Shown: piece after piece, positions 6,376 through 23,666 of the stretch
Layout of the letters: every line of letters starts with the position of its first letter
How positions within the stretch are numbered: position 1 is the stretch's first letter
IMG/VR virus record: IMGVR_UViG_3300031696_000059
Span: 1 to 24,007 of that record
From: a virus
Reading direction: 5' to 3' (one strand)
DNA length: 24,007 nucleotides
Notes under the pieces: model-generated
Told to the model about the DNA's origin: nothing
Database searches by the model: none
What the model saw: only the letters and a program-made list of their open reading frames with translations
Translations under genes and position numbers: made by a program

Positions 6376-9300
6376 ATGTCAAGTGAAACTTTTAATCTTG
6401 AGCAATCTCTATCTAACAATTCTCAACTAACACAACCTGAAAAAGAAAAAGAAATTTCTGAATTAGACTTTTCTCTTGCTGAACCATTACCTGAATCTGA
6501 AACTTTAATAGAAGTAAAAGATGAAGTTAAAGATGATAGTAATGTAGAAGCTTTAGTTTCAACACAAGAGACAGAAGGTAGTTTAGATTTTTCTCAAGGC
6601 GAAGAAGTTAAGGTAAGTAATCTTGAAAAATTAGAATACGCTTTTGATAAAAATACTCAAATTATAGGTAATGTTTGGAGAATTAGTAAGGCTAAAGTTC
6701 AAGATATATTTGATGATGAAAAAACATTTAAAGATTATATACTATCAAATAGAGCAACAGAAGAAAAAGATATTTACAAAGAACATTGGAAGTTTAAATC
6801 AGGTAAATATGATGATGATGGAATTGTTAAAGCAGGAGAAATAGCAACTTTAATGTTAGACCCTGGTTATATATTGGCTTATGCTACACCTTGGGGAAGA
6901 GCAGCTTTAAAAAGTTATAAGATGGCTTCTTTAATGGGAGGTTTAACTATTGGTGCTGATGTTGCTTTAAGAGATTTAGCTACTAAAGGTGAGATTAATT
7001 ATGGTAAGGTTGGAATATCTAGCACACTTGGTGTAGTACTAGGACCACTTGCTCCTGCCGTTACTAAAATATTTAAAAAGTTTGCACCTCAAAGTTCACA
7101 AAAACAAATAGACGAAGTTGTTGAATATATAGATACTAAGATTGCTAAAAGAGAAGGAATAACTAAAAAACAATTATTTAATTTAAGAAATGTTTCTCAA
7201 GATGCAGAAGTTATAGCTGCAAATAAAAATTTATCAACTTGGTCGAATGCTAATTTCATGTCTCCTGTTGTTAATGAGATTAAAAAAGTTAAAGGTTTAG
7301 AAAAAATTATTAAAGAAAAAAATGAAGCGTTAAGAATATTACATACTTCTACAAAGGGTACTAAAAAAGCTAAAGGAAAAGTTCCTGGTATGTTAAAACC
7401 TACTAGAACATTTAGACAAACAATACTTGATAATAGAGCAAAAGTTAAAGAAGCAAATATAGCCTTAGAGGCAGCTAAAGTACAAATTTATAAAAATCAA
7501 ATTCCTAAAATTAAAAAGTATTCAGAATTAGTAGCTACAAGAGATACTCTTATTTTAGAAAAACTACAAGCAACAGAAAGTAGTCTTGATTTTGCTGTTA
7601 GATATTTAGTATCAGCAACTATTAAACCATTAGGTTTTGGTGCAATGGGTGTATCTGCAGGTGTAATATTTGGTGATGAAGATACAAAATTAATTAACTG
7701 GTTTATTGGTGGAGCAGTTATAGGTAAAACTCAAAAATATATTCAAGCTAGTAAAAAATTTAAACTAGCTGACAAGAATAAAGTTTTAGGTATTATAGAT
7801 AGTGACTATGTAAAATATACTTTACAACAATTAAGAAGTATGACATCAGCTACTTCCTCTACAAAACTTAATAGCTATGGTGGGGCAACAGAAAGAGTAG
7901 GAAGAATGTTATTAGAAACAATAGATTCTTCTGTTTCTCAGAAATCAGTTATTGCAAATGCTGAAAGATTACAAAGAGAATATACTGCAAAAGCTTTTAA
8001 TCTTGTTCAAGGTTTTTCTGCAGCAGAACAATCTTCAGCAGTTTCTATAGTTAGAGGAAAAAAAATTACAACTGATACACCTCAAAATGTTGTTCAACTG
8101 TCAAAAAATATTCAAACATATTTAGATGAATTTAAAACTTTATATAATGATTCAGGGTTTTTTTCTAAAACAGAAATAAGTGATTACTTTCCTAGAGTAT
8201 TGAATTGGGAAAAAATTAATAGGAATGAAAAAGGTTTTCAAGAAGTATTAACAGGAATTTTTAAATCTTTAAAAGCTAAAGACCCTACAAAATCTGCTAA
8301 AGATTATATGCAAGGACATAAGTCAGGTTCAGATTCTGTATTTAATAGAGAAGCATTAGAAGAATTATTTCAAGGATTTTCTAAGACAGGAGCAAGTAAA
8401 AATAAACTAGGTAAAGAATTTATTTATACTCCTATAAGTGAACATATTGCCCATGAAAGAAGTTTGAATGGACCTTATAAATTAGTAGAAGAAATATTAG
8501 AAAAAAATGGTTACTTAGTAAATGATGTTGCAAGTATTTTAACTAATCTAACAACTAAATCAATGCGGTCAATTTCTTTCACTAGACAATTTGGAGAGAA
8601 TGGACAATTATTAAAACCTTTTTTTAAAGAAATTAGAGATAAGTATATTGCTTCAGGAATGAGTGCAAGGGATGCTAATATTGCCGCAGCTAAAGAAGGT
8701 AACTTAGTTGCTAATACTGTTGATGCTTATTTTGATAGGTATGGAACAAGTTTAACAGGCTCATCAAAACAAATAGCAGTAGTACTTTCAACTTTATCTA
8801 ACTTAAATATGCTAGGTAGAGTAACAATATCTTCATTGGGAGATTTAGTTCAACCTTTTCAAAACTCATCTCAATTTAGTTCTTGGTTTAAGGCGTTGCC
8901 TGTAGTCGGAGTAAAAGGAACTAGAACTGCTTTAACTGCTAAAGGAGAAACAGGTATTTCTAAAGATTTAAATTATGCAATAACAAATGAAATTAGAGTT
9001 GGGTTAAGTAAACCTTTAGCTACAGAACAATCGAATCTTGCACTAAATACAAGTTGGATGGGGGAAGGACCAATAACTTCTAAAATTAATAACGTAGCTT
9101 TTAAAGCTTTAGGTTTACAATGGCTAACAGGATTTGCAAGAAGATTTGCATATAATGTAGGAGCAGGAGATATTTTTGGATTATCTAAAAGTTTAGCAAA
9201 AGTTGTTAAAGCTCAAGGTATCGATAGCAGAAAAGCTCAATTAATAATTGCTGATTTATCTAAGTATGGTGTTAAACCATCTGAGGCATTAAACTTATCT

Positions 9301-10833
9301 AAATTTACAAGTATGGATTTAGCAATTAAAAATGCAGTAGCGAAGAAAACATTAGGTCAAGCAGGTATAGTTACCTCAAATAGAGATGCTTTAGTTCCAC
9401 AATTATCTAATAGATTATTATTTACCCAAAGTCAGAATCAAGCTTCAAGATTAATGGGGCAATTTATGTCTTGGGCTATGGCAAAATCTGCACAAACAAA
9501 TAAAGTTATAGGTAGAATAGAAAATGGAAACACTAAAACTTTACTTAAAACTTTAGCTGTGATTCCTGTGTATTCAGCTATTGCAAATTTAAGAGAATTA
9601 GCAAAGTATGGAACAATTATAACTGATTATAATGAAGATAATAAAAGATGGTGGGCTGAAGGATTAAGGTTATCAGGTATGCAAGGAATCTTAGCTGATT
9701 TAGTTGTTAATAAAACAGTAGGACCTGGAGGAAGAGACCCTTGGTTTTTAATTGCTCCTTCTTTTCAAATTGCAAAAGCAATAGGAGAAGTTCCTATAGA
9801 ATTACTGAAGGGTAACACAGACAGAGCATTAAGAATTTTCTCGCAAAAAATAGCACCTCTTCCAAATTGGAGAAATTCATTTAGTAAATGGTGGTCGAAA
9901 AGTAAACCTCTTCCTGCTAATAAAAATTTAACAAATACTATTAAGCCTCTTAATTTTAATTCAGGAGATATTGTTACTTTAGAAAAAAGTTTAGTAAATA
10001 ATGAGTTAATAAATAATGAAAAACAAAATATAAATTTAGTAAAAGAAAAAAATGAAAAGCAAATATCAAAGACAGAAATAAAAAAACAAGCAGAGAAATC
10101 TATGAAAGAAGGATTTCCTATATATGAAAATAAAAAAGGTGAAAGAATTTCGCTTGAGCAAATGCAAAAAGAAATACAAGGAGAGAAAGAAAAAAATATG
10201 AATATAAAAGATGTGGCAAAAGTAGGTGCAGTTGTTACTGGTTTAGCAACAGGTGTTAATGCTGATGTTGTTAAGAAAACTTTACCTGTGGAACAAAACA
10301 AAACAGAAGTAATAAGTAAAAGAATAGATTATAACAACCTACCTGAGTTAGCAAAAGATAAACAAAAATTTTTATTAGATGCAGCTTCAGTTATTTATCA
10401 AAATAATAAAGGCAAAGATGTACCAAATGATATTTTATTAGCAATAGCTATAGAAGAAACTGGTTATGGTACAGGAAGATTTTATAAGGAAGGTAATAGT
10501 TATTTTAATATGATTGCAGAAAAAGGAGATAATAGGATTAAAGCAACAGGAGATAGTACACAAGTTGCAAAGTTTGAAACTCCTGCAGGAAGTTTAGAAA
10601 AGTTCTATACTTGGGTGGAAACTAAACCTCATTACAAAGGAGTACGAGAAGTGCTTCAAAAATATAAAGATGGTGAAGCTACTAAGAATGATATTATAGA
10701 CGCAATATCAGACACAGGATGGGCAGAGAATAAAAATTGGGGAGATAGTGTTAAAAGTATTCTTAAAAAAAGAGTAAATGGTAAGCATTCTAAGGAATTA
10801 TTACTACTTGAAAATTCTTTATTTAAAAAATAG
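6376..10833 (+). CDS. Giant internal virion/ejection protein with C-terminal glucosaminidase domain (1485 aa)
   Basis: The likely counterpart of T7 gp16: a very long protein ejected with the DNA and carrying a cell-wall-opening enzyme. Residues 1-75 are acidic and disordered-looking. The middle (about 150-1170) is long and helical, with Ala/Gly-rich hydrophobic patches near 170-240 and 405-450. Residues 1195-1290 form a charged linker. About 1325-1480 is a glucosaminidase domain (GH73/Bax-like): AIEETGYGTGRF with probable catalytic Glu1361, GNSYFNMIAE, and then SLEKFYTWVETKPHYKG. The domain would cut peptidoglycan glycan chains during DNA entry. Start: ATG preceded by TAGGAG at good spacing. 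In T7 gp16 the lytic domain is N-terminal and of the transglycosylase type, so both place and family differ here. Confidence 0.88.
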   Translation: MSSETFNLEQSLSNNSQLTQPEKEKEISELDFSLAEPLPESETLIEVKDEVKDDSNVEALVSTQETEGSLDFSQGEEVKVSNLEKLEYAFDKNTQIIGNVWRISKAKVQDIFDDEKTFKDYILSNRATEEKDIYKEHWKFKSGKYDDDGIVKAGEIATLMLDPGYILAYATPWGRAALKSYKMASLMGGLTIGADVALRDLATKGEINYGKVGISSTLGVVLGPLAPAVTKIFKKFAPQSSQKQIDEVVEYIDTKIAKREGITKKQLFNLRNVSQDAEVIAANKNLSTWSNANFMSPVVNEIKKVKGLEKIIKEKNEALRILHTSTKGTKKAKGKVPGMLKPTRTFRQTILDNRAKVKEANIALEAAKVQIYKNQIPKIKKYSELVATRDTLILEKLQATESSLDFAVRYLVSATIKPLGFGAMGVSAGVIFGDEDTKLINWFIGGAVIGKTQKYIQASKKFKLADKNKVLGIIDSDYVKYTLQQLRSMTSATSSTKLNSYGGATERVGRMLLETIDSSVSQKSVIANAERLQREYTAKAFNLVQGFSAAEQSSAVSIVRGKKITTDTPQNVVQLSKNIQTYLDEFKTLYNDSGFFSKTEISDYFPRVLNWEKINRNEKGFQEVLTGIFKSLKAKDPTKSAKDYMQGHKSGSDSVFNREALEELFQGFSKTGASKNKLGKEFIYTPISEHIAHERSLNGPYKLVEEILEKNGYLVNDVASILTNLTTKSMRSISFTRQFGENGQLLKPFFKEIRDKYIASGMSARDANIAAAKEGNLVANTVDAYFDRYGTSLTGSSKQIAVVLSTLSNLNMLGRVTISSLGDLVQPFQNSSQFSSWFKALPVVGVKGTRTALTAKGETGISKDLNYAITNEIRVGLSKPLATEQSNLALNTSWMGEGPITSKINNVAFKALGLQWLTGFARRFAYNVGAGDIFGLSKSLAKVVKAQGIDSRKAQLIIADLSKYGVKPSEALNLSKFTSMDLAIKNAVAKKTLGQAGIVTSNRDALVPQLSNRLLFTQSQNQASRLMGQFMSWAMAKSAQTNKVIGRIENGNTKTLLKTLAVIPVYSAIANLRELAKYGTIITDYNEDNKRWWAEGLRLSGMQGILADLVVNKTVGPGGRDPWFLIAPSFQIAKAIGEVPIELLKGNTDRALRIFSQKIAPLPNWRNSFSKWWSKSKPLPANKNLTNTIKPLNFNSGDIVTLEKSLVNNELINNEKQNINLVKEKNEKQISKTEIKKQAEKSMKEGFPIYENKKGERISLEQMQKEIQGEKEKNMNIKDVAKVGAVVTGLATGVNADVVKKTLPVEQNKTEVISKRIDYNNLPELAKDKQKFLLDAASVIYQNNKGKDVPNDILLAIAIEETGYGTGRFYKEGNSYFNMIAEKGDNRIKATGDSTQVAKFETPAGSLEKFYTWVETKPHYKGVREVLQKYKDGEATKNDIIDAISDTGWAENKNWGDSVKSILKKRVNGKHSKELLLLENSLFKK

Positions 10834-10862
10834 TTGACACAAGATAGTTTTTTATCTATAAT
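10834..10862 (+). promoter_or_regulatory. Perfect consensus sigma-70 promoter for the distal late module
   Basis: TTGACA (10834-10839) begins at the first base after the TAG stop of the 1485-residue gene. A 17-base spacer leads to TATAAT (10857-10862). Both hexamers are exact. Transcription would start near 10869, giving a leader of about 60 nt before the holin-like gene. Confidence 0.85.
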
Positions 10863-10927: not shown

Positions 10928-11296
10928 ATGTTACCATATAAATTATTATTCAACTTAGGTTCTAAAGCTGTTGGAACTTTTGTACAAAGACGTAAAGAAA
11001 AAAGTGAAAGAAAACATAATATTGCTTTACAAGAAATGGCTACTGGAAATGAGAGAGCTAAAAGAAATGGTTCATTATTTTTAGATTTAATATTAGGTGC
11101 ATTTATATTAGCACCCTTAGGTATACTTGCCTATGCTACATTCTATGGAGATATAGATATGTTAACTAAAGTAGAATTTTATTTTGAGCAATTAAAAAAT
11201 ATACCTGAAGTATATTTATATTTAATATTTATAGTGGTAGGGGGTAACTATGGAATATCAGTTACTAATTTATTAACAGGAAAGAAATTTAAATAA
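10928..11296 (+). CDS. Holin-like membrane protein (122 aa)
   Basis: A basic amphipathic N-terminus (residues 1-48, with RRKEKSERKHNIALQEM) is followed by two membrane segments, at about 50-72 (SLFLDLILGAFILAPLGILA) and about 95-115 (VYLYLIFIVVGGNYGISV). The C-terminus is short and basic (NLLTGKKFK). This resembles the design of the GTA/3TM-type holins found in alphaproteobacterial phages: a charged helix, hydrophobic segments and a Gly-rich last segment before a Lys-rich tail. Holins form inner-membrane lesions that time lysis. An AGGAG Shine-Dalgarno precedes the ATG, and the gene is first after a consensus promoter. No separate endolysin gene is visible nearby. Confidence 0.65.
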   Translation: MLPYKLLFNLGSKAVGTFVQRRKEKSERKHNIALQEMATGNERAKRNGSLFLDLILGAFILAPLGILAYATFYGDIDMLTKVEFYFEQLKNIPEVYLYLIFIVVGGNYGISVTNLLTGKKFK

Positions 11297-14784: not shown

Positions 14785-16429
14785 CTAATGGACACCTTAT
14801 ATTTAATTGTTTACCTGCATCTATTATTGATTGAACAGCTAACTTTCCAAACTCTTCTGCTCTATCTTCTTGAACTTCATATTGAAATTCATCATGCACA
14901 TTCACTACAGGGAATGCTTTGATTTGTTTACTTATAACATATTCTTGTAGTAATGTCAACGATTTTTTCATAACTACAGCACCTGCACCCTGCAATAAAG
15001 TATTTAATGCAGAGTATTGATGTCTTATTATTATTTTTCTTTGGTCAAGTCCTTTGACCCATCTTCTTTTAGCCACTCTATCCACCTTTTCTCGTAGTCG
15101 TTTAAGACTTGGTGTACCTCTAAGAAATTTTTCTTTAATTCTTTCTCCATCTCGTTCCGTACCTTTAATGATACTTCCGATTTTTCTGTTACCTGCTCCA
15201 TAGATGAATGCGTAAATAAAAGTCTTCGCCTCATCTCTTGACCCCAAACCAGCAGTAGTTTGATTTGCTGTGTGTATATCTCCATTAATGATTTCATATA
15301 TATAATCCTTATCGTTCATGTAGTGGGCTAACATCCTTAACTCTAAGCCTGATGCATCAACCCCTACTAATTTATACCCTTTTTCTACTATCCATAATTC
15401 TCTACATTCTTTTCCGTAGGTTGAATGCACAGCAGGAACTTGAGCCATATTGGGCGATTGATGACTCATTCTCCCTGTAATTGTACCATTGGTTATTACT
15501 TTGCCATGCACTCTACCATCTTCTCTAACTGCTTCAATCCAGGAGGAAACTTGGGCGATTCTTTTTTGAAGCATTAGAAACCTGTTAATTAATTTAGCCT
15601 CAGGAATATTTTTTATCGCTGATAATACTTTCTCATCTACAATAATATGTCCTTTGTCAGTTTTCTTTTTTGGTTTCCATCCTAGCCTAACTAATCGTTC
15701 TGCTATTTGTTGACGTGAGCCTAAATTAAATTCTTTAATTTTTACTTTTATAAAAGGTACACCTTTAACATACCCTCTAGCTTTATTGTTAGACTTAGGA
15801 ATAAACTCTTCTTCTAATCTTAAAGGTGGAAAAGTTTCTCTTACTTTGTTTTGTAAATCTGTCATGTCTTCTTGAAATTTACTTTGTAACATATAAGCAC
15901 CAACAACGTCTAGCTTAAAGCCTCTCTCATGTTGTCCTTGTATGATGGTCGCAACCTCATGTTCTAACTCTATAGAGTCTCCAAAGTTTTTCATCTTAAT
16001 CATTAAGAATTTATAAAGTCGTTCAGTTAACTCAACATCATTCCTACAATATTCCAACATCTCTTTACTTAGGTAATCAAATTGTTCGAATTGTATTTTC
16101 TGTTGTCCAAGTTTTAAACCCCAGTTCTTTAATGAATGTCCACCATCTATAACTGGGTTGAATACCCTTGATAAAACTAATGTATCTGTAATTTTACAAT
16201 TTGTAAATAAATCCTTACCAAAAAATTTATTTAATACTGGTACATCAAATCCAATTATATTATGTCCAATAAATTCTTTTGTTTGTTTAGCAAACTCTTC
16301 AAATCTATTTAGATTATGTCCATCTTTAAATTGATAATAAGTATCTTGATGTTTACAAATGATACACCATACCTTATCTGCTGTCATGGTAGTCTCAATA
16401 TCAAATACTACTTTATCAAATTTCATCAT
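14741..16429 (-). CDS. T7-like family A DNA polymerase with 3'-5' exonuclease (562 aa)
   Basis: Replicates the phage genome. Numbered from ATG 16429. Proofreading domain: FDIET (Asp10, Glu12), HNIIGFD (Asn57, Asp62) and YCRNDVEL (Tyr127, Asp131). Polymerase: motif A DASGLELR (Asp358), motif B RDEAKTFIYAFIYGAG (Lys402, Tyr406) and motif C VNVHDEF (His512, Asp513). The C-terminus GNNWSETH matches T7 gp5's GPNWAICH, down to the last His. It is about 140 residues shorter than T7 gp5 (704); some of that loss should fall in the thumb, where T7 binds thioredoxin. Tyr406 is at the Pol I 762 position. An in-frame TTG at 16432 is a weaker start. It overlaps the primase-helicase gene by 14 bases. Confidence 0.96.
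   Translation of the reverse strand: MMKFDKVVFDIETTMTADKVWCIICKHQDTYYQFKDGHNLNRFEEFAKQTKEFIGHNIIGFDVPVLNKFFGKDLFTNCKITDTLVLSRVFNPVIDGGHSLKNWGLKLGQQKIQFEQFDYLSKEMLEYCRNDVELTERLYKFLMIKMKNFGDSIELEHEVATIIQGQHERGFKLDVVGAYMLQSKFQEDMTDLQNKVRETFPPLRLEEEFIPKSNNKARGYVKGVPFIKVKIKEFNLGSRQQIAERLVRLGWKPKKKTDKGHIIVDEKVLSAIKNIPEAKLINRFLMLQKRIAQVSSWIEAVREDGRVHGKVITNGTITGRMSHQSPNMAQVPAVHSTYGKECRELWIVEKGYKLVGVDASGLELRMLAHYMNDKDYIYEIINGDIHTANQTTAGLGSRDEAKTFIYAFIYGAGNRKIGSIIKGTERDGERIKEKFLRGTPSLKRLREKVDRVAKRRWVKGLDQRKIIIRHQYSALNTLLQGAGAVVMKKSLTLLQEYVISKQIKAFPVVNVHDEFQYEVQEDRAEEFGKLAVQSIIDAGKQLNIRCPLDGKYKVGNNWSETH
14931..14959 (-). promoter_or_regulatory. Possible internal promoter within the polymerase gene
   Basis: On the minus strand: TTGACA (14959-14954), a 17-base spacer ending in ATATGT, and TATAAG (14936-14931), eleven of twelve consensus bases. 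It would boost the exonuclease and distal genes. The bases also encode LTLLQEYVIS, so coincidence cannot be excluded. Confidence 0.4.
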
Positions 16430-18059
16430 CAACCATTTGAACTTCGTTAAGTCTACCAGTATCTACATCATATTTTAAATCACAACATGGTCCAGTTAAT
16501 CCTGAGAACCTATTTTTTAATACTCTTATTCTTGTTGTATTTCTAATATCAGGGTCGCTATTCTGAGCGTCTCTCTCTAATCCGATTACCATATCACTAA
16601 GTTGTCCTATACTTGCTGAACCTCTTAGTTGTGATAGGGAAGTTGAAGCACCTTCTTCATGTCCTTTACCCTCAGGTCTTCTTAAATGAGATACAACAAT
16701 CATAGATAAGCCTGTTTCTTGAACAAGTGTTCTAAGCCTAGTCATAATTTCATCTAATGCTCTTCGTTCATCTCCATGTGATTGGTCTGATACAATAATA
16801 CTAACATGGTCTATTATAACATACTTACAATCTAATCCTTTAGCTAAATATCTAACTCTTGAAACTATATTATCAATTGAATTAGAACCGAAGTGGTCAA
16901 ACATAAATACTCTGCCAGTACCTACTGTTGCATCAAAGTAAGTCTTCATCTCTTCTTTACTTACATGAACGTCAGGCAAATGTAATCTTTGATTAGCTTC
17001 TATACTCATTAAACCTTTGGAAGTTATTACTGGAGTTTCCTCTAGCATTAACAAACCTATATTATCTTTAGTTGATTTAATTATATGATGTACAATCTCT
17101 CGCATCACTTGTGTTTTACCTAGTCCACTACCTGCTGTAAAGGTAACTAACTCTGATGGTCTTAATCCATATGTTATTTTGTTCATTCCTTCAAAAGGAT
17201 ATTGAACAAATGATTTTAATGTTGGTTTAGTTATCTCATCAAATAATATATTTGCATTTATAATACCATCAGGAGCATATAACTTTGCACCCCAAAAAGC
17301 TTTGGTATATATTTGTAATTTATTTTTACTTAAACAATCTGAGGCATCCTTATATCCCTCAGGTAAATGCATAACCTTACATTTTCCTGGAGAAAAAAGT
17401 TCAGCTACTTTCATAGCCCCTTCTTGTCCTTGCTTATCATTATCAAAATTAATAATAACATTATCAAACTGTTCTAAAAAATCTAAACTTGTTTTAATAT
17501 CTTTAACAGCAGAAGTAATACCATTCTTAATACTTACTACTGGAGTTTCATATTTATCTGTTTTAAATATTTGATAAGCTGATAAACAATCCAACTCACC
17601 TTCTGTTATAATTATATACTTATTTTTAGAGAAGAGATGTTCCCCAAACAAACCTGAGTTCTTTGTGTTTCCTTGAATACTAAATTCTTTTAACTTAGTA
17701 TATCTAGTTTTGGTTGCAATCTTTGCACCTTGCTTATCATGGTAGGGGTAATAGTGATTGGTAATAGTACCAACACTATCCATCTTAACTGTAACCCCAA
17801 ACCTTTTACAAGTTTGTTCTCTTATATTTCTATCTATAATTTCTGCAAAGTTAGATTGTTTTAAATAATCTTTAACCTCATATTCGTTTGCTGAATTAGT
17901 TGTATTAACTTCTTGTGCTTCCATATTATATTCCTTTATATATTCTTGACAGGAGAAACAATATGCCGAACCATCCTTATTCATTGATACCGCATCACTA
18001 CTAGAACATAGTGGACATGGTAGATGGTACTTTATAAACCCATTATTATCTGTTTCCAT
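16416..18059 (-). CDS. T7 gp4-like bifunctional primase-helicase (547 aa)
   Basis: Makes primers and unwinds DNA at the fork. Numbered from ATG 18059. An N-terminal zinc finger has Cys15-x2-Cys18 and Cys34-x2-Cys37 (CPLC and CFSC). The TOPRIM primase domain has TEGELD (Glu153) and NFDND (Asp206, Asp208). The RecA-like helicase has Walker A GSGLGKT (310-316), Walker B YVIIDHVS (Asp417), VVSHLRRP and SQLRGSASI. Length is close to T7 gp4 (566). I chose ATG 18059 because GAGGG lies six bases upstream; ATG 18071 would add four residues and lacks a ribosome site. A strong terminator lies 25 bases upstream, so expression depends on read-through. Confidence 0.96.
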   Translation of the reverse strand: METDNNGFIKYHLPCPLCSSSDAVSMNKDGSAYCFSCQEYIKEYNMEAQEVNTTNSANEYEVKDYLKQSNFAEIIDRNIREQTCKRFGVTVKMDSVGTITNHYYPYHDKQGAKIATKTRYTKLKEFSIQGNTKNSGLFGEHLFSKNKYIIITEGELDCLSAYQIFKTDKYETPVVSIKNGITSAVKDIKTSLDFLEQFDNVIINFDNDKQGQEGAMKVAELFSPGKCKVMHLPEGYKDASDCLSKNKLQIYTKAFWGAKLYAPDGIINANILFDEITKPTLKSFVQYPFEGMNKITYGLRPSELVTFTAGSGLGKTQVMREIVHHIIKSTKDNIGLLMLEETPVITSKGLMSIEANQRLHLPDVHVSKEEMKTYFDATVGTGRVFMFDHFGSNSIDNIVSRVRYLAKGLDCKYVIIDHVSIIVSDQSHGDERRALDEIMTRLRTLVQETGLSMIVVSHLRRPEGKGHEEGASTSLSQLRGSASIGQLSDMVIGLERDAQNSDPDIRNTTRIRVLKNRFSGLTGPCCDLKYDVDTGRLNEVQMVDDEI

Positions 18060-18084: not shown

Positions 18085-18123
18085 AAAAAAAAGAGAAGGC
18101 AACCTACTACAAGTCGCCTCCCC
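18085..18123 (-). terminator. Strong intrinsic terminator between the SSB and primase genes
   Basis: On the minus strand GGGGAGGCGAC (18123-18113) pairs over 11 bp, with some G-U pairs, with GTTGCCTTCTC (18103-18093) around a nine-base loop, directly followed by eight T (18092-18085). It is the only clear rho-independent terminator seen in the window. It acts only in the minus direction because the other side has no T run. Confidence 0.88.
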
Positions 18124-18163
18124 CAAGGAGTAGTCAAATGAACAGCTGTATTATTCATTTAAC
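18085..18163 (-). ncRNA. Candidate ~80-nt structured RNA or attenuator leader
   Basis: On the minus strand the predicted start (near 18162) of the promoter at 18169-18197 coincides with a 10-bp hairpin. GTTAAATGAA (18163-18154) and TTCATTTGAC (18142-18133) pair around an 11-base loop with one G-U pair. A nine-base linker TACTCCTTG follows, then an 11-bp terminator hairpin and eight U. The fit of promoter, 5' hairpin and 3' terminator suggests a discrete small RNA, or an attenuator for the primase-polymerase genes that begin 25 bases later. The linker's CUCC can instead pair with GGAG at the terminator's base, a possible switch. No known RNA family recognised. Confidence 0.6.
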
Positions 18164-18168
18164 ATCTG

Positions 18169-18197
18169 ATACTACTAAAAATCTTCCTTGATGTCAA
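18169..18197 (-). promoter_or_regulatory. Promoter for the two-hairpin RNA upstream of primase
   Basis: Minus strand: TTGACA (18197-18192), a 17-base spacer, TAGTAT (18174-18169). The -35 is perfect and the -10 matches four of six. The -35 is inside the last codons of the SSB gene and the -10 lies just after its stop. The expected start near 18162 falls at the foot of the first hairpin, which supports the call. Confidence 0.55.
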
Positions 18198-18624
18198 CAC
18201 CATTTGAAGATTCTTCTATGGTAAAATCTTCTCTTGGTTGATACTCAATTAAGTCTACTACTTGTACCGCCTGTAAGTCTAAGCCTACACCTGTCTTACC
18301 TTTATAATTCCAATCATAAGACTTGTACATAACTTTAACCTTACTACCATTACCAACAATTTTATCTAATGGTTTTTTCTCTGCATCTACTAAAGTAGGT
18401 TGTGAGTTTTTATCACCATTGGCTTTTGAAACTTTACGTTTAAATGTAACCATATTCTTAATAGGCTTATCATCAACAACACTTTCTTTGAGAACGATAC
18501 CTTTGCTCTTAAGGTCTTCGGCTGAAGCTTCATCTAATGATAAGTCAACTCGCCACATGGGTTCAAACTTTTCGTTTGGTCTTGTTAAGGATGCCCAGTA
18601 AGCTATGCCTTCTACTATTGCCAT
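18175..18624 (-). CDS. T7 gp2.5-like single-stranded DNA-binding protein (149 aa)
   Basis: Coats single-stranded DNA at the fork and contacts the polymerase and helicase. The start AIVEGIAYWASLTRPNEKF and the late strands VKVMYKSYDWNYKGKTG and GLDLQAVQVVDLIEY fit the OB-fold layout of the gp2.5/DUF2815-type phage SSBs. The C-terminal tail is acidic and ends in KEDF; T7 gp2.5 likewise ends in an acidic tail with a final Phe needed for partner binding. The size (149) is smaller than T7 gp2.5 (232). It has its own promoter immediately upstream, GAGGT as a ribosome site, and precedes the structured RNA and primase gene. Confidence 0.82.
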   Translation of the reverse strand: MAIVEGIAYWASLTRPNEKFEPMWRVDLSLDEASAEDLKSKGIVLKESVVDDKPIKNMVTFKRKVSKANGDKNSQPTLVDAEKKPLDKIVGNGSKVKVMYKSYDWNYKGKTGVGLDLQAVQVVDLIEYQPREDFTIEESSNGVDIKEDF

Positions 18625-19963: not shown

Positions 19964-20060
19964 ATTCCCTTTGACTAAATTGTTTAACGAAGGTCAGGCT
20001 TGAGGACATTCCCCTGTTCTTTAACCGAAAGTGTTTAGACTTCGACCTGACTATATACTT
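19964..20060 (-). promoter_or_regulatory. Structured 5' leader of the 85-aa gene, with a motif shared by the lipoprotein leader
   Basis: Read on the minus strand, GTCAGG (20051-20046) and CCTGAC (19998-19993) close a multi-branched region. Inside are a hairpin CGAAGT/ACTTTCG (20044-20026) and a GGGGA-ATG-TCCTC hairpin. The segment after the first hairpin, GGTTAAAGAAC, recurs as GGCTAAAGAAC after a similar hairpin in the leader at 21372-21399. A 31-codon frame starts at 20009 within the element. No terminator U run follows, and no known riboswitch class fits. Confidence 0.45.
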
Positions 20061-21767: not shown

Positions 21768-21959
21768 TTATAGTTTCTCTATCATCTTTTTTTTTATTTG
21801 AAAACCACCCTCGGAATCCCATAGTCCATATGTTTCTCCTTCTACCCAATCGTCAATGTTAGCATCATGTGATTTTTGATGTGCCTCATTCTTATTCTTA
21901 GCTTCTATGTCTAAGTAATAAGGTACTGTTTCATATCCCCACACTCTATACTTATTCAT
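21768..21959 (-). CDS. Small early protein, possibly DpnD/PcfM-like (63 aa)
   Basis: The pattern MNKYRVWGYETVPYYLDIEA-KNKNEAHQKSHD (strand, strand, helix) resembles the small DpnD/PcfM-like domain (V-x-E-x-x-x-x-x-V-x-A-x-s-x-x-E-A). It is followed by an acidic and aromatic end (WVEGETYGLWDSEGGF). The resemblance is modest. It overlaps the upstream 103-residue gene by eight bases and is followed after one base by the next, so it is part of the early operon. Confidence 0.7.
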   Translation of the reverse strand: MNKYRVWGYETVPYYLDIEAKNKNEAHQKSHDANIDDWVEGETYGLWDSEGGFQIKKKMIEKL

Positions 21960-22263
21960 CCTTTGTATCGCCTTCCACTTCTATTTGTGTATCATCCCCA
22001 TATTCAACTCCATTAAATAAAACTTTACATTTAGGATAGTCTTCATGTTCTACAATGGAAGTTTCACCTTCAGTAAATGAACCCCAATCCACTCCTATCT
22101 CTCGTACTTCTTCTTCAGTTAATTGTTTAGGTGAAGTTATAGTCCACTCTCTTACATCAACTGATTGCTCTGTATATTTATATTCATACTCACTCTTAGG
22201 CATAGGCACTCCTGCGTTTCGATACTCTTCCTCTTGTGTCATTGGTATTCTTTTTTTGTCCAT
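21952..22263 (-). CDS. Acidic early hypothetical protein (103 aa)
   Basis: An AGGAG Shine-Dalgarno precedes the ATG. Strongly acidic: PMTQEEEYRNAGVPMPKSEY, QLTEEEVREIGVDWGSFTEGE, and an end VEGDTKDE. No family recognised. Acidic small early proteins of phages often act as DNA mimics or inhibitors of host enzymes, but no motif shows that here. It overlaps the next gene by eight bases. Confidence 0.75.
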   Translation of the reverse strand: MDKKRIPMTQEEEYRNAGVPMPKSEYEYKYTEQSVDVREWTITSPKQLTEEEVREIGVDWGSFTEGETSIVEHEDYPKCKVLFNGVEYGDDTQIEVEGDTKDE

Positions 22264-22285
22264 CTTTCTACTCCTATTTGTTTGA

Positions 22286-22546: not shown

Positions 22547-22912
22547 CTATATTTTAGTTCCAAATACTGAGTACTCTTCCTCAGGTTCATCATCCATGTA
22601 ACTAAACTTTATTCCTTTTGGTTCTTCCTTTTTCTTGGGAGGGAAATGTTCATCAAACTCTTTAAACCAATCCTCTTTTTGATATTCAATAGTATCATTC
22701 CACACTTGGGAATATCCTTCTTCATCTAATCCCCACGATATTTTAATCTCACAATCATCCTCATTAAAAGCTAACTCATCTACCCTTGCCCAACCATCTT
22801 TGTATAGAGCATCCGACCTAAAACTTTCTGCTGTATATTCTGCCCATAAAGTTAAGTTGTCTTCTGTCCATTCTCTTTTTAATTTATCTACATCAAAATA
22901 AAAACTTGCCAT
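22547..22912 (-). CDS. Acidic early hypothetical protein (121 aa)
   Basis: A GAGGAG Shine-Dalgarno is present. Rich in Trp, Asp and Glu: KREWTEDNLTLWAEYTAESF, ELAFNEDDCEIKISWGLDEE and an end with PPKKKEEPKG and DDEPEEEYSVFG. No family recognised. It lies two bases after the preceding gene. The composition fits the set of early acidic proteins. Confidence 0.75.
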   Translation of the reverse strand: MASFYFDVDKLKREWTEDNLTLWAEYTAESFRSDALYKDGWARVDELAFNEDDCEIKISWGLDEEGYSQVWNDTIEYQKEDWFKEFDEHFPPKKKEEPKGIKFSYMDDEPEEEYSVFGTKI

Positions 22913-22914
22913 TA

Positions 22915-23178
22915 TTACTCCTCCTCTGTTTGCTGTTCGCCTTCCATGTCTCTATACTTAGACATAAGATGGTCATTGTTATCATCTACATTACATTCTA
23001 TTTCTTCTGCTATCTCAGGTATATCAAATTTTTTAATGTCATACCCTTCACTCTTACATCTGCTAAGAAATTCTTCTGATACAGTAGCACCACTTGCCAT
23101 ATACTCTCCATCTCCTAACTCTCCACTCTTATATTCTCTATAACAATCATCAGCTATTGTCATAATTTCTATAGGCAT
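22915..23178 (-). CDS. Acidic early hypothetical protein (87 aa)
   Basis: AAGG lies just before the ATG, which overlaps the previous stop by one base (TAATG). It starts MPIEIMTIADDCYREYKSGE and ends in an acidic stretch (DMEGEQQTEEE). No motif recognised. It is co-translated with the 60-residue gene upstream and the 121-residue gene downstream. Confidence 0.72.
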   Translation of the reverse strand: MPIEIMTIADDCYREYKSGELGDGEYMASGATVSEEFLSRCKSEGYDIKKFDIPEIAEEIECNVDDNNDHLMSKYRDMEGEQQTEEE

Positions 23179-23360
23179 TATACCTTCCTCTTAGTGTTAG
23201 CGGTTAATACATATAGATAACCTTTTTCATTAACTATTATTTCTTCTTTTAAATATTTAACTATATCTAATGCATCATCACAATCATAAGCTAGTATTTT
23301 AATAGTCTGTGTAGCTGTCTTGAACAGATACTCTGATTGTTTTTGTTTTTTATATGCCAT
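23178..23360 (-). CDS. Small early hypothetical protein (60 aa)
   Basis: AAAGGAGG, one of the strongest ribosome sites in the window, precedes the ATG. The sequence is MAYKKQKQSEYLFKTATQTI, then KILAYDCDDALDIVKYLKEE, with a strand-helix-strand look, ending LYVLTANTKRKV. No family recognised. It overlaps the 72-residue gene by 11 bases. Confidence 0.72.
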   Translation of the reverse strand: MAYKKQKQSEYLFKTATQTIKILAYDCDDALDIVKYLKEEIIVNEKGYLYVLTANTKRKV

Positions 23361-23568
23361 CTAGTTCCTCCTTTATTTTTTTATATGAACTCTCTATTAC
23401 ATCTTTATCTATTAGATAAGGGTTGTCATTCTTAAAAAAGTACTCTAAATTTAAAGATACCTTTATGTAATCTAGGTCAGGCTCATCCGTCTGAGTGACC
23501 TTAGGGTCTGTTAGTATTTCACGGATGGCTTCTTCGACTTCGTATATGGCTTCTTTAACTTTGCCCAT
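23350..23568 (-). CDS. Small early hypothetical protein (72 aa)
   Basis: The ATG follows AAGGAGG at seven bases. Helical, with GKVKEAIYEVEEAIREIL, then DPKVTQTDEPDLDYIKVSLN and a second helix (DVIESSYKKIKEELDGI). No family recognised. Its first 58 bases overlap the end of a 51-codon frame on the same strand. Confidence 0.72.
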   Translation of the reverse strand: MGKVKEAIYEVEEAIREILTDPKVTQTDEPDLDYIKVSLNLEYFFKNDNPYLIDKDVIESSYKKIKEELDGI

Positions 23569-23666
23569 TCTTCTACCTCCTTGTCTGTTATATTTAATTT
23601 TTCTTTTAAGCCTTTAACTTTCCAACTTTTCTCTGCTATAAGTTCTCTCATTGTTTTCTTTTCCAT
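23511..23666 (-). CDS. Possible small basic protein overlapping the 72-aa gene (51 aa)
   Basis: ATG 23666 overlaps the TAA of the first early gene (TAATG). The product is basic: MEKKTMRELIAEKSWKVKGL, KEKLNITDKEVEEWAKLKKP, then YTKSKKPSVKY. The middle could be a small helix-turn-helix. The last 58 bases overlap the 72-residue gene in another frame, and the Shine-Dalgarno of that gene lies inside this one. Coupling to the upstream gene supports it; the overlap and short length weaken it. Confidence 0.5.
   Translation of the reverse strand: MEKKTMRELIAEKSWKVKGLKEKLNITDKEVEEWAKLKKPYTKSKKPSVKY

Follow-up and report, generated by a model that had tools for sequence, protein, structure and literature searches.

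A conserved hairpin–linker–hairpin unit between the SSB and primase genes of HTVC103P-type pelagiphages: a putative small RNA with an anti-Shine-Dalgarno seed

Does the short region between the SSB gene and the primase-helicase gene of a marine phage encode an RNA that acts on its own, or a leader that controls the replication genes behind it? The question is raised by the window, i.e., the whole stretch of 24,007 nucleotides analysed here, which represents part of an HTVC103P-type pelagiphage genome, HTVC103P and HTVC104P being the closest isolates (~78–79% identity across the SSB–primase region). On the minus strand of the window, small early genes are followed by the gene of a Gp2.5-like SSB (18175–18624; phrog_112, E 1.7e-11), the primase-helicase gene (16416–18059; phrog_239, E 5.9e-182), and the genes of a DNA polymerase and a Cas4-type exonuclease. 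An earlier note had described a promoter, two hairpins and a terminator in the SSB–primase gap, and had read them as a phage small RNA or, alternatively, as an attenuator. We assign a probability of about 0.52 to a stand-alone phage small RNA whose CUCC seed would block the GGAG ribosome sites of early genes, with the replication genes escaping.

All elements of the unit are present on the minus strand of the window and are conserved in relatives. The −35 element TTGACA (18192–18197) lies within the 3′ end of the SSB gene, in the codons GTT GAC ATC (Val-Asp-Ile), and a 17-nt spacer separates it from the −10 element TAGTAT (18169–18174), which is located immediately 3′ of the SSB stop codon. 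The start predicted from this −10 element, near 18162 as the earlier note had placed it, coincides with the foot of hairpin 1 (18133–18163), and the predicted RNA covers 78 nt (18162–18085), in line with the approximately 80 nt first estimated. Hairpin 1, previously read as 10 bp, comprises 12 bp in the fold, and the unpaired linker UACUCCUU (18125–18132), with the anti-Shine-Dalgarno core CUCC at 18130–18127, measures 8 nt instead of nine. Hairpin 2 (18092–18124) is the terminator stem, for which 11 bp had been given and which has 15 pairs, 6 of them G-C; the U-tract behind it (18085–18091) does hold eight U when the last stem base is counted. Between the terminator and the primase ATG at 18059 we counted the same 25 nt as the earlier note; this ATG is the conserved primase start, and an in-frame ATG upstream of it (18071) is missing from many relatives.

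In AT-rich DNA a single promoter match carries no weight, as the window scan returned 83 sites against 78 expected in shuffles, and conservation was therefore tested. The terminator at 18124–18092 was by far the strongest in the scanned half of the window, all others having at most 7 pairs, and the 83-nt RNA folded at −28.5 kcal/mol compared to −16.0 ± 2.8 kcal/mol for shuffles (z −4.5), none of the 200 shuffles being as good. The SSB–primase gap was taken from 157 sequences, which without HTVC115P correspond to 62 distinct sequences, and the order hairpin–linker–hairpin was found in all 62 of these gaps of HTVC103P-type pelagiphages, with a predicted RNA length of 69–87 nt in the relatives that have a U-tract. 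The linker contains UCC in every one of them and an exact CUCC in 58, the other four having AUCC. Folded from the predicted start, the linker motif is predicted to be unpaired in all 62 (mean unpaired probability 0.98); when upstream DNA is included in the fold it becomes partly paired in some relatives, with the unpaired probability falling to 0.34, an outcome that speaks for transcription starting at the hairpin foot.

The covariance of the hairpin pair in relatives, which the earlier note had named as a check, is seen for both hairpins. The alignment fitted to the model comprised 46 distinct rows. In it, 97.2% of the cells of hairpin 2 were paired and 9 of its 13 pairs had both-sided changes; for hairpin 1 the paired share was 77.8%, with such changes in 7 of the 8 modelled pairs. 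The covariation score of the structure was 0.499 versus 0.261 for shuffled alignments, and slid partners reached at most 0.179. An alignment fitted to no model still showed both-sided changes in 12 of 22 pairs, and unfitted clade-by-clade alignments agreed. MAFFT/RNAalifold over all 62 rows recovered only 5 pairs because the length of hairpin 1 varies between clades, a problem that was resolved by the clade-wise alignments and the model.

The promoter and the U-tract were followed in 92 haplotypes of the SSB gene plus gap. TTGACA with the 17-nt spacer occurs in 67 of them, the −10 position being mostly TAnnnT or TAnAAC, and a run of at least 6 T is present at the U-tract in 75. Where the Val-Asp pair of the −35 region is present, Val is encoded by GTT in 72/72 haplotypes (42% elsewhere in SSB) and Asp by GAC in 65/72 (32% elsewhere), a contrast that carries no p-value since the haplotypes are related. 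HTVC103P and HTVC104P have an indel in the SSB tail (VDNIKEF vs VDIKEDF), yet TTGACA still stands exactly 17 nt before TATAGT. The −35 element is thus, at the level of sequence, conserved as DNA beyond coding need in most clades and is a real DNA-level signal. Promoter and U-tract occur together in 72/92 haplotypes, which thereby possess the conserved promoter and terminator of their own expected of a stand-alone small RNA; both are missing in 15 and they are discordant in 5. With 4 and 3 changes on the primase tree, the events are too scarce for a statistical test of joint loss. Besides, no T7-type RNA polymerase gene was found in HTVC103P, HTVC104P, HTVC115P or the long contigs tested, two control pelagiphages being positive, and host sigma-70-type promoters are therefore expected in HTVC103P-type phages.

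The haplotypes without these signals include a sub-clade formed by L024, L028, L031, L034 and their relatives, which lacks the −35 element and the U-tract and keeps both hairpins and the ACUCC linker. Six double-changed pairs indicate that compensatory changes maintain the hairpins there, with hairpin 2 covarying as well. Considering that hairpins and linker are kept where the U-tract is missing, selection probably maintains the RNA structure and the seed for a role besides termination. Processing of the SSB–primase transcript might release the RNA in this sub-clade. Most of its members also carry an exposed CCUCC in the hairpin 2 loop, which could serve as another anti-Shine-Dalgarno seed.

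Attenuator leaders place a promoter, a hairpin and a terminator ahead of an operon. The unit has the same succession of elements before the replication genes, and it might be a cis attenuator in which read-through of the leader sets the expression of primase, polymerase and exonuclease and the free RNA is a mere by-product. The terminator ends 24–31 nt before the primase start in nearly all relatives, which leaves no space for a second full promoter, and read-through is required under any model, so that this part of the earlier note is borne out as far as can be judged from sequence; the exceptions are relatives with a short extra ORF at this place (L051, HTVC103P, HTVC104P). The switch proposed at the time, in which the CUCC of the linker pairs with GGAG at the base of the terminator and opens it, was not supported by folding. 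It is possible in the sequence of the window and is neither conserved nor competitive, as the GGAG at the terminator foot is missing in 31 of the 62 relatives, which keep the linker motif, and the pairing with GGAG (or GGGG) is 5.7–7.3 kcal/mol worse than the terminator fold. Unlike in attenuator leaders, we found no conserved mutually exclusive fold, in a search aimed mainly at the CUCC–GGAG pairing. An attenuator by itself also leaves unexplained both the conserved unpaired CUCC and the hairpins kept by compensatory change without a U-tract. We thus consider it unlikely, whereas the small-RNA half of the earlier proposal is upheld by the promoter, the start, the two covarying hairpins, the unpaired CUCC and the terminator. 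In L002, L003 and L051 a short ORF of ~30–38 aa with a hydrophobic stretch starts right after the U-tract, before primase, and the clade that includes L056/L063 retains only its first codons (ATGAACGAATTT), apparently as a deletion remnant.

For the stand-alone small RNA, we propose that host RNA polymerase would start a ~78-nt RNA at the sigma-70-type promoter, which reaches into the 3′ end of the SSB gene, and that the intrinsic terminator would stop it, both steps being suggested by sequence and conservation. The two predicted hairpins, which covariation supports, would cap the RNA and keep the short linker open, and the CUCC of the linker would act as an anti-Shine-Dalgarno seed. It is more likely, on this reading of the sequences, that CUCC pairs in trans with GGAG Shine-Dalgarno sequences than in cis. 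By pairing with GGAG ribosome sites, found mainly in early genes, the RNA would block the loading of ribosomes, and SSB, primase and other replication genes would escape through sites without GGAG, so that translation would shift from early to replication proteins. Some polymerases would pass the terminator into primase. Hfq (PF17209) was found in none of ten SAR11 genomes (G023–G032) and in 5 of 14 control genomes, including Caulobacter; the reading as an Hfq-bound RNA was dropped because the host lacks Hfq, and pairing by the small RNA would have to work without it.

The linker provides an accessible seed with predicted complementarity to ribosome sites. In the window, the predicted targets, all on the minus strand, are AGGAGUAG (22268–22275), the site of the early gene 21952–22263 and an 8-nt perfect complement of CUACUCCU (−12.5 kcal/mol); AGGAGUA (22916–22922), the site of the early gene 22547–22912 and a near-perfect complement (−11.4 kcal/mol); and AAGGAGGUAG (23573–23582), the site of the early gene 23350–23568, likewise near-perfect (−13.7 kcal/mol). 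Among annotated genes, GGAG sites occur in 19 of 33 early genes and 0 of 9 downstream genes of HTVC103P (p 0.002), and in 17/34 and 0/9, respectively, of HTVC104P (p 0.007). Pooled over 23 contigs, the counts are 254/499 for early (51%), 16/196 for downstream (8%) and 60/298 for late genes (20%), figures that are a description only, as the contigs are related and non-independent and the choice of starts was biased towards strong ribosome sites. GGAG is also present in late genes, in HTVC103P in 12 of 34 annotated ones, and in HTVC115P, which is without the unit, the difference between early and downstream genes has the same direction and is weaker and not significant (downstream 3/12, early 10/21).

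GGAG is absent from all 36 distinct SSB ribosome sites of phages with the unit and present in all 12 of the sister clade and all 5 of other pelagiphages, a contrast that essentially represents a few lineage-level differences; in unit-bearing phages the site is mostly AAGGAAA or GAGGUA, and that of the window is also without GGAG. The primase site reads AGGG (AGGGCGAC) in phages with the unit, including the window, and GGGG in all 13 gap types of the sister clade. Considering these two sites, the replication genes look as if they had been moved out of the reach of the seed. The stronger proposal, that one small RNA reads GGAG as the mark of a class and thereby lets the phage silence the translation of its own early genes, is tentative and, in our estimate, rather less probable than its being wrong. 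Seed variants (UACUCC, UACCUCC, UAUCUCC, UUAUCC) do not track the variants of ribosome sites within the same genomes, i.e., seed–target covariation is absent. The predictions single out no gene family as a specific target, and none of the orthologous early genes ranks first throughout.

Alternatively, the main targets of the same small RNA could be mRNAs or ribosomes of the host. As an anti-Shine-Dalgarno core CUCC is generic, the 16S tail of the host carries CACCUCCUUUCU, and the search for phage targets returned no single conserved one; set against this, unit-bearing phages avoid GGAG both in SSB and in the replication genes behind it, which suggests selection on the phage side to escape, and we judge a mainly host-directed role improbable. 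It is still less probable that the unit is a processing or stability element, in which the hairpins keep the SSB and primase mRNAs apart and shield them, and CUCC is a mere spacer. The persistence of the hairpins in the sub-clade without promoter and U-tract would agree with such an element, but the letters of the linker are better conserved than the hairpin sequences and the −35 element is kept as DNA in most clades. A replication primer or origin transcript, for which position next to the replication genes is the one argument, is very improbable given the 3′ terminator hairpin with its U-tract, the trans-type seed, and the complete absence of the unit from a sister clade with the same replication genes.

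In that sister clade of HTVC115P, the SSB–primase gap measures 21–34 nt in all 13 types. A covariance model (R1) finds the unit once per genome within its own lineage: 22 long contigs gave one locus and only weak extra matches, and second matches at 53277 of HTVC103P and 12615 of the window (15–18 bits) look like chance. The model gave no credible match in nine other phages (HTVC115P, six Autographiviridae pelagiphages, one uncultured phage and one Pseudoalteromonas phage) and no match in 127 SAR11 genomes, the larger run on the latter having stricter filters and no positive control. A primase search of genome contigs returned no relatives. Rfam 15 gave no family at or above the gathering threshold (best weak match E 0.12), and no regulatory RNA is reported for any pelagiphage in the open-licence literature searched. 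The unit would thus define an RNA family that is conserved, has no entry in Rfam, and comes with a clear seed and an equally clear prediction for the whole genome.

Among known RNAs, the cyanobacterial Yfr1 has a 5′ stem-loop, an unpaired middle with the undecamer ACUCCUCACAC, and a 3′ GC-rich terminator hairpin with a U tail, in a length of 54–69 nt (PMC2190773, PMC6778093). The unit shares the two stem-loops flanking an unpaired region, the 3′ stem being the terminator, and an ACUCC in the unpaired middle, the sole part of the undecamer common to both. In contrast to Yfr1, its linker is shorter, its predicted RNA measures 69–87 nt, and it is a pelagiphage gene, not a cyanobacterial one. With the undecamer missing and the lineage different, the unit is not a member of Yfr1 and at most works like it; the similar shape would mean that two unrelated lineages have converged on one design. 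In phage T4, the endoribonuclease RegB cuts GGAG in early Shine-Dalgarno sites, which leads to early shut-off and passage to later stages (PMC9409239). The proposed outcome is alike, as early mRNAs would be inactivated via GGAG in their Shine-Dalgarno sites, but RegB is an RNA-cutting protein and the pelagiphage unit a proposed base-pairing RNA. A RegB homologue (PF10715) was found in none of 13 records, in a weak test where control genomes themselves gave only sub-threshold matches. The OOP RNA of lambda is a phage small RNA antisense to cII, and like it and other phage small RNAs the unit would give a short RNA near replication genes with its own promoter and terminator (PMC12197685); the pelagiphage RNA, on the other hand, is intergenic, lies on the same strand, and has a generic anti-Shine-Dalgarno seed.

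If early genes are indeed shut off by this small RNA, the genome would be written around it, with a mark borne by the early genes and lost by SSB and the replication genes, and the RNA would be a counterpart of T4 RegB in a host without Hfq. It would also mean that a phage without its own RNA polymerase can order expression by the class of ribosome site, not by promoters, and that the genes of an entire set can adapt jointly to a single small RNA. SAR11 bacteria are among the most abundant in the sea, and their phages are very numerous.

Other sites in the window deserve mention. An intergenic RNA candidate (19975–20055, minus strand) lies between the gene of a LexA-like repressor and the next ORF; its GUCAGGU..GCCUGAC encloses 2–3 small hairpins, and CGAAG..CUUCG could form an extra pseudoknot. 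It is confined to near-identical contigs, has no Rfam match and folds no better than shuffles. Just 5′ of SSB (18697–18669, minus strand) there is another promoter-like site, TTGACA-17-TACAGT, whose −10 is preceded by TG. On the plus strand, a perfect consensus promoter, TTGACA-17-TATAAT (10834–10862), stands between the genes 6376–10833 and 10928–11296 and is the sole 12/12 match within the scanned region of the window.
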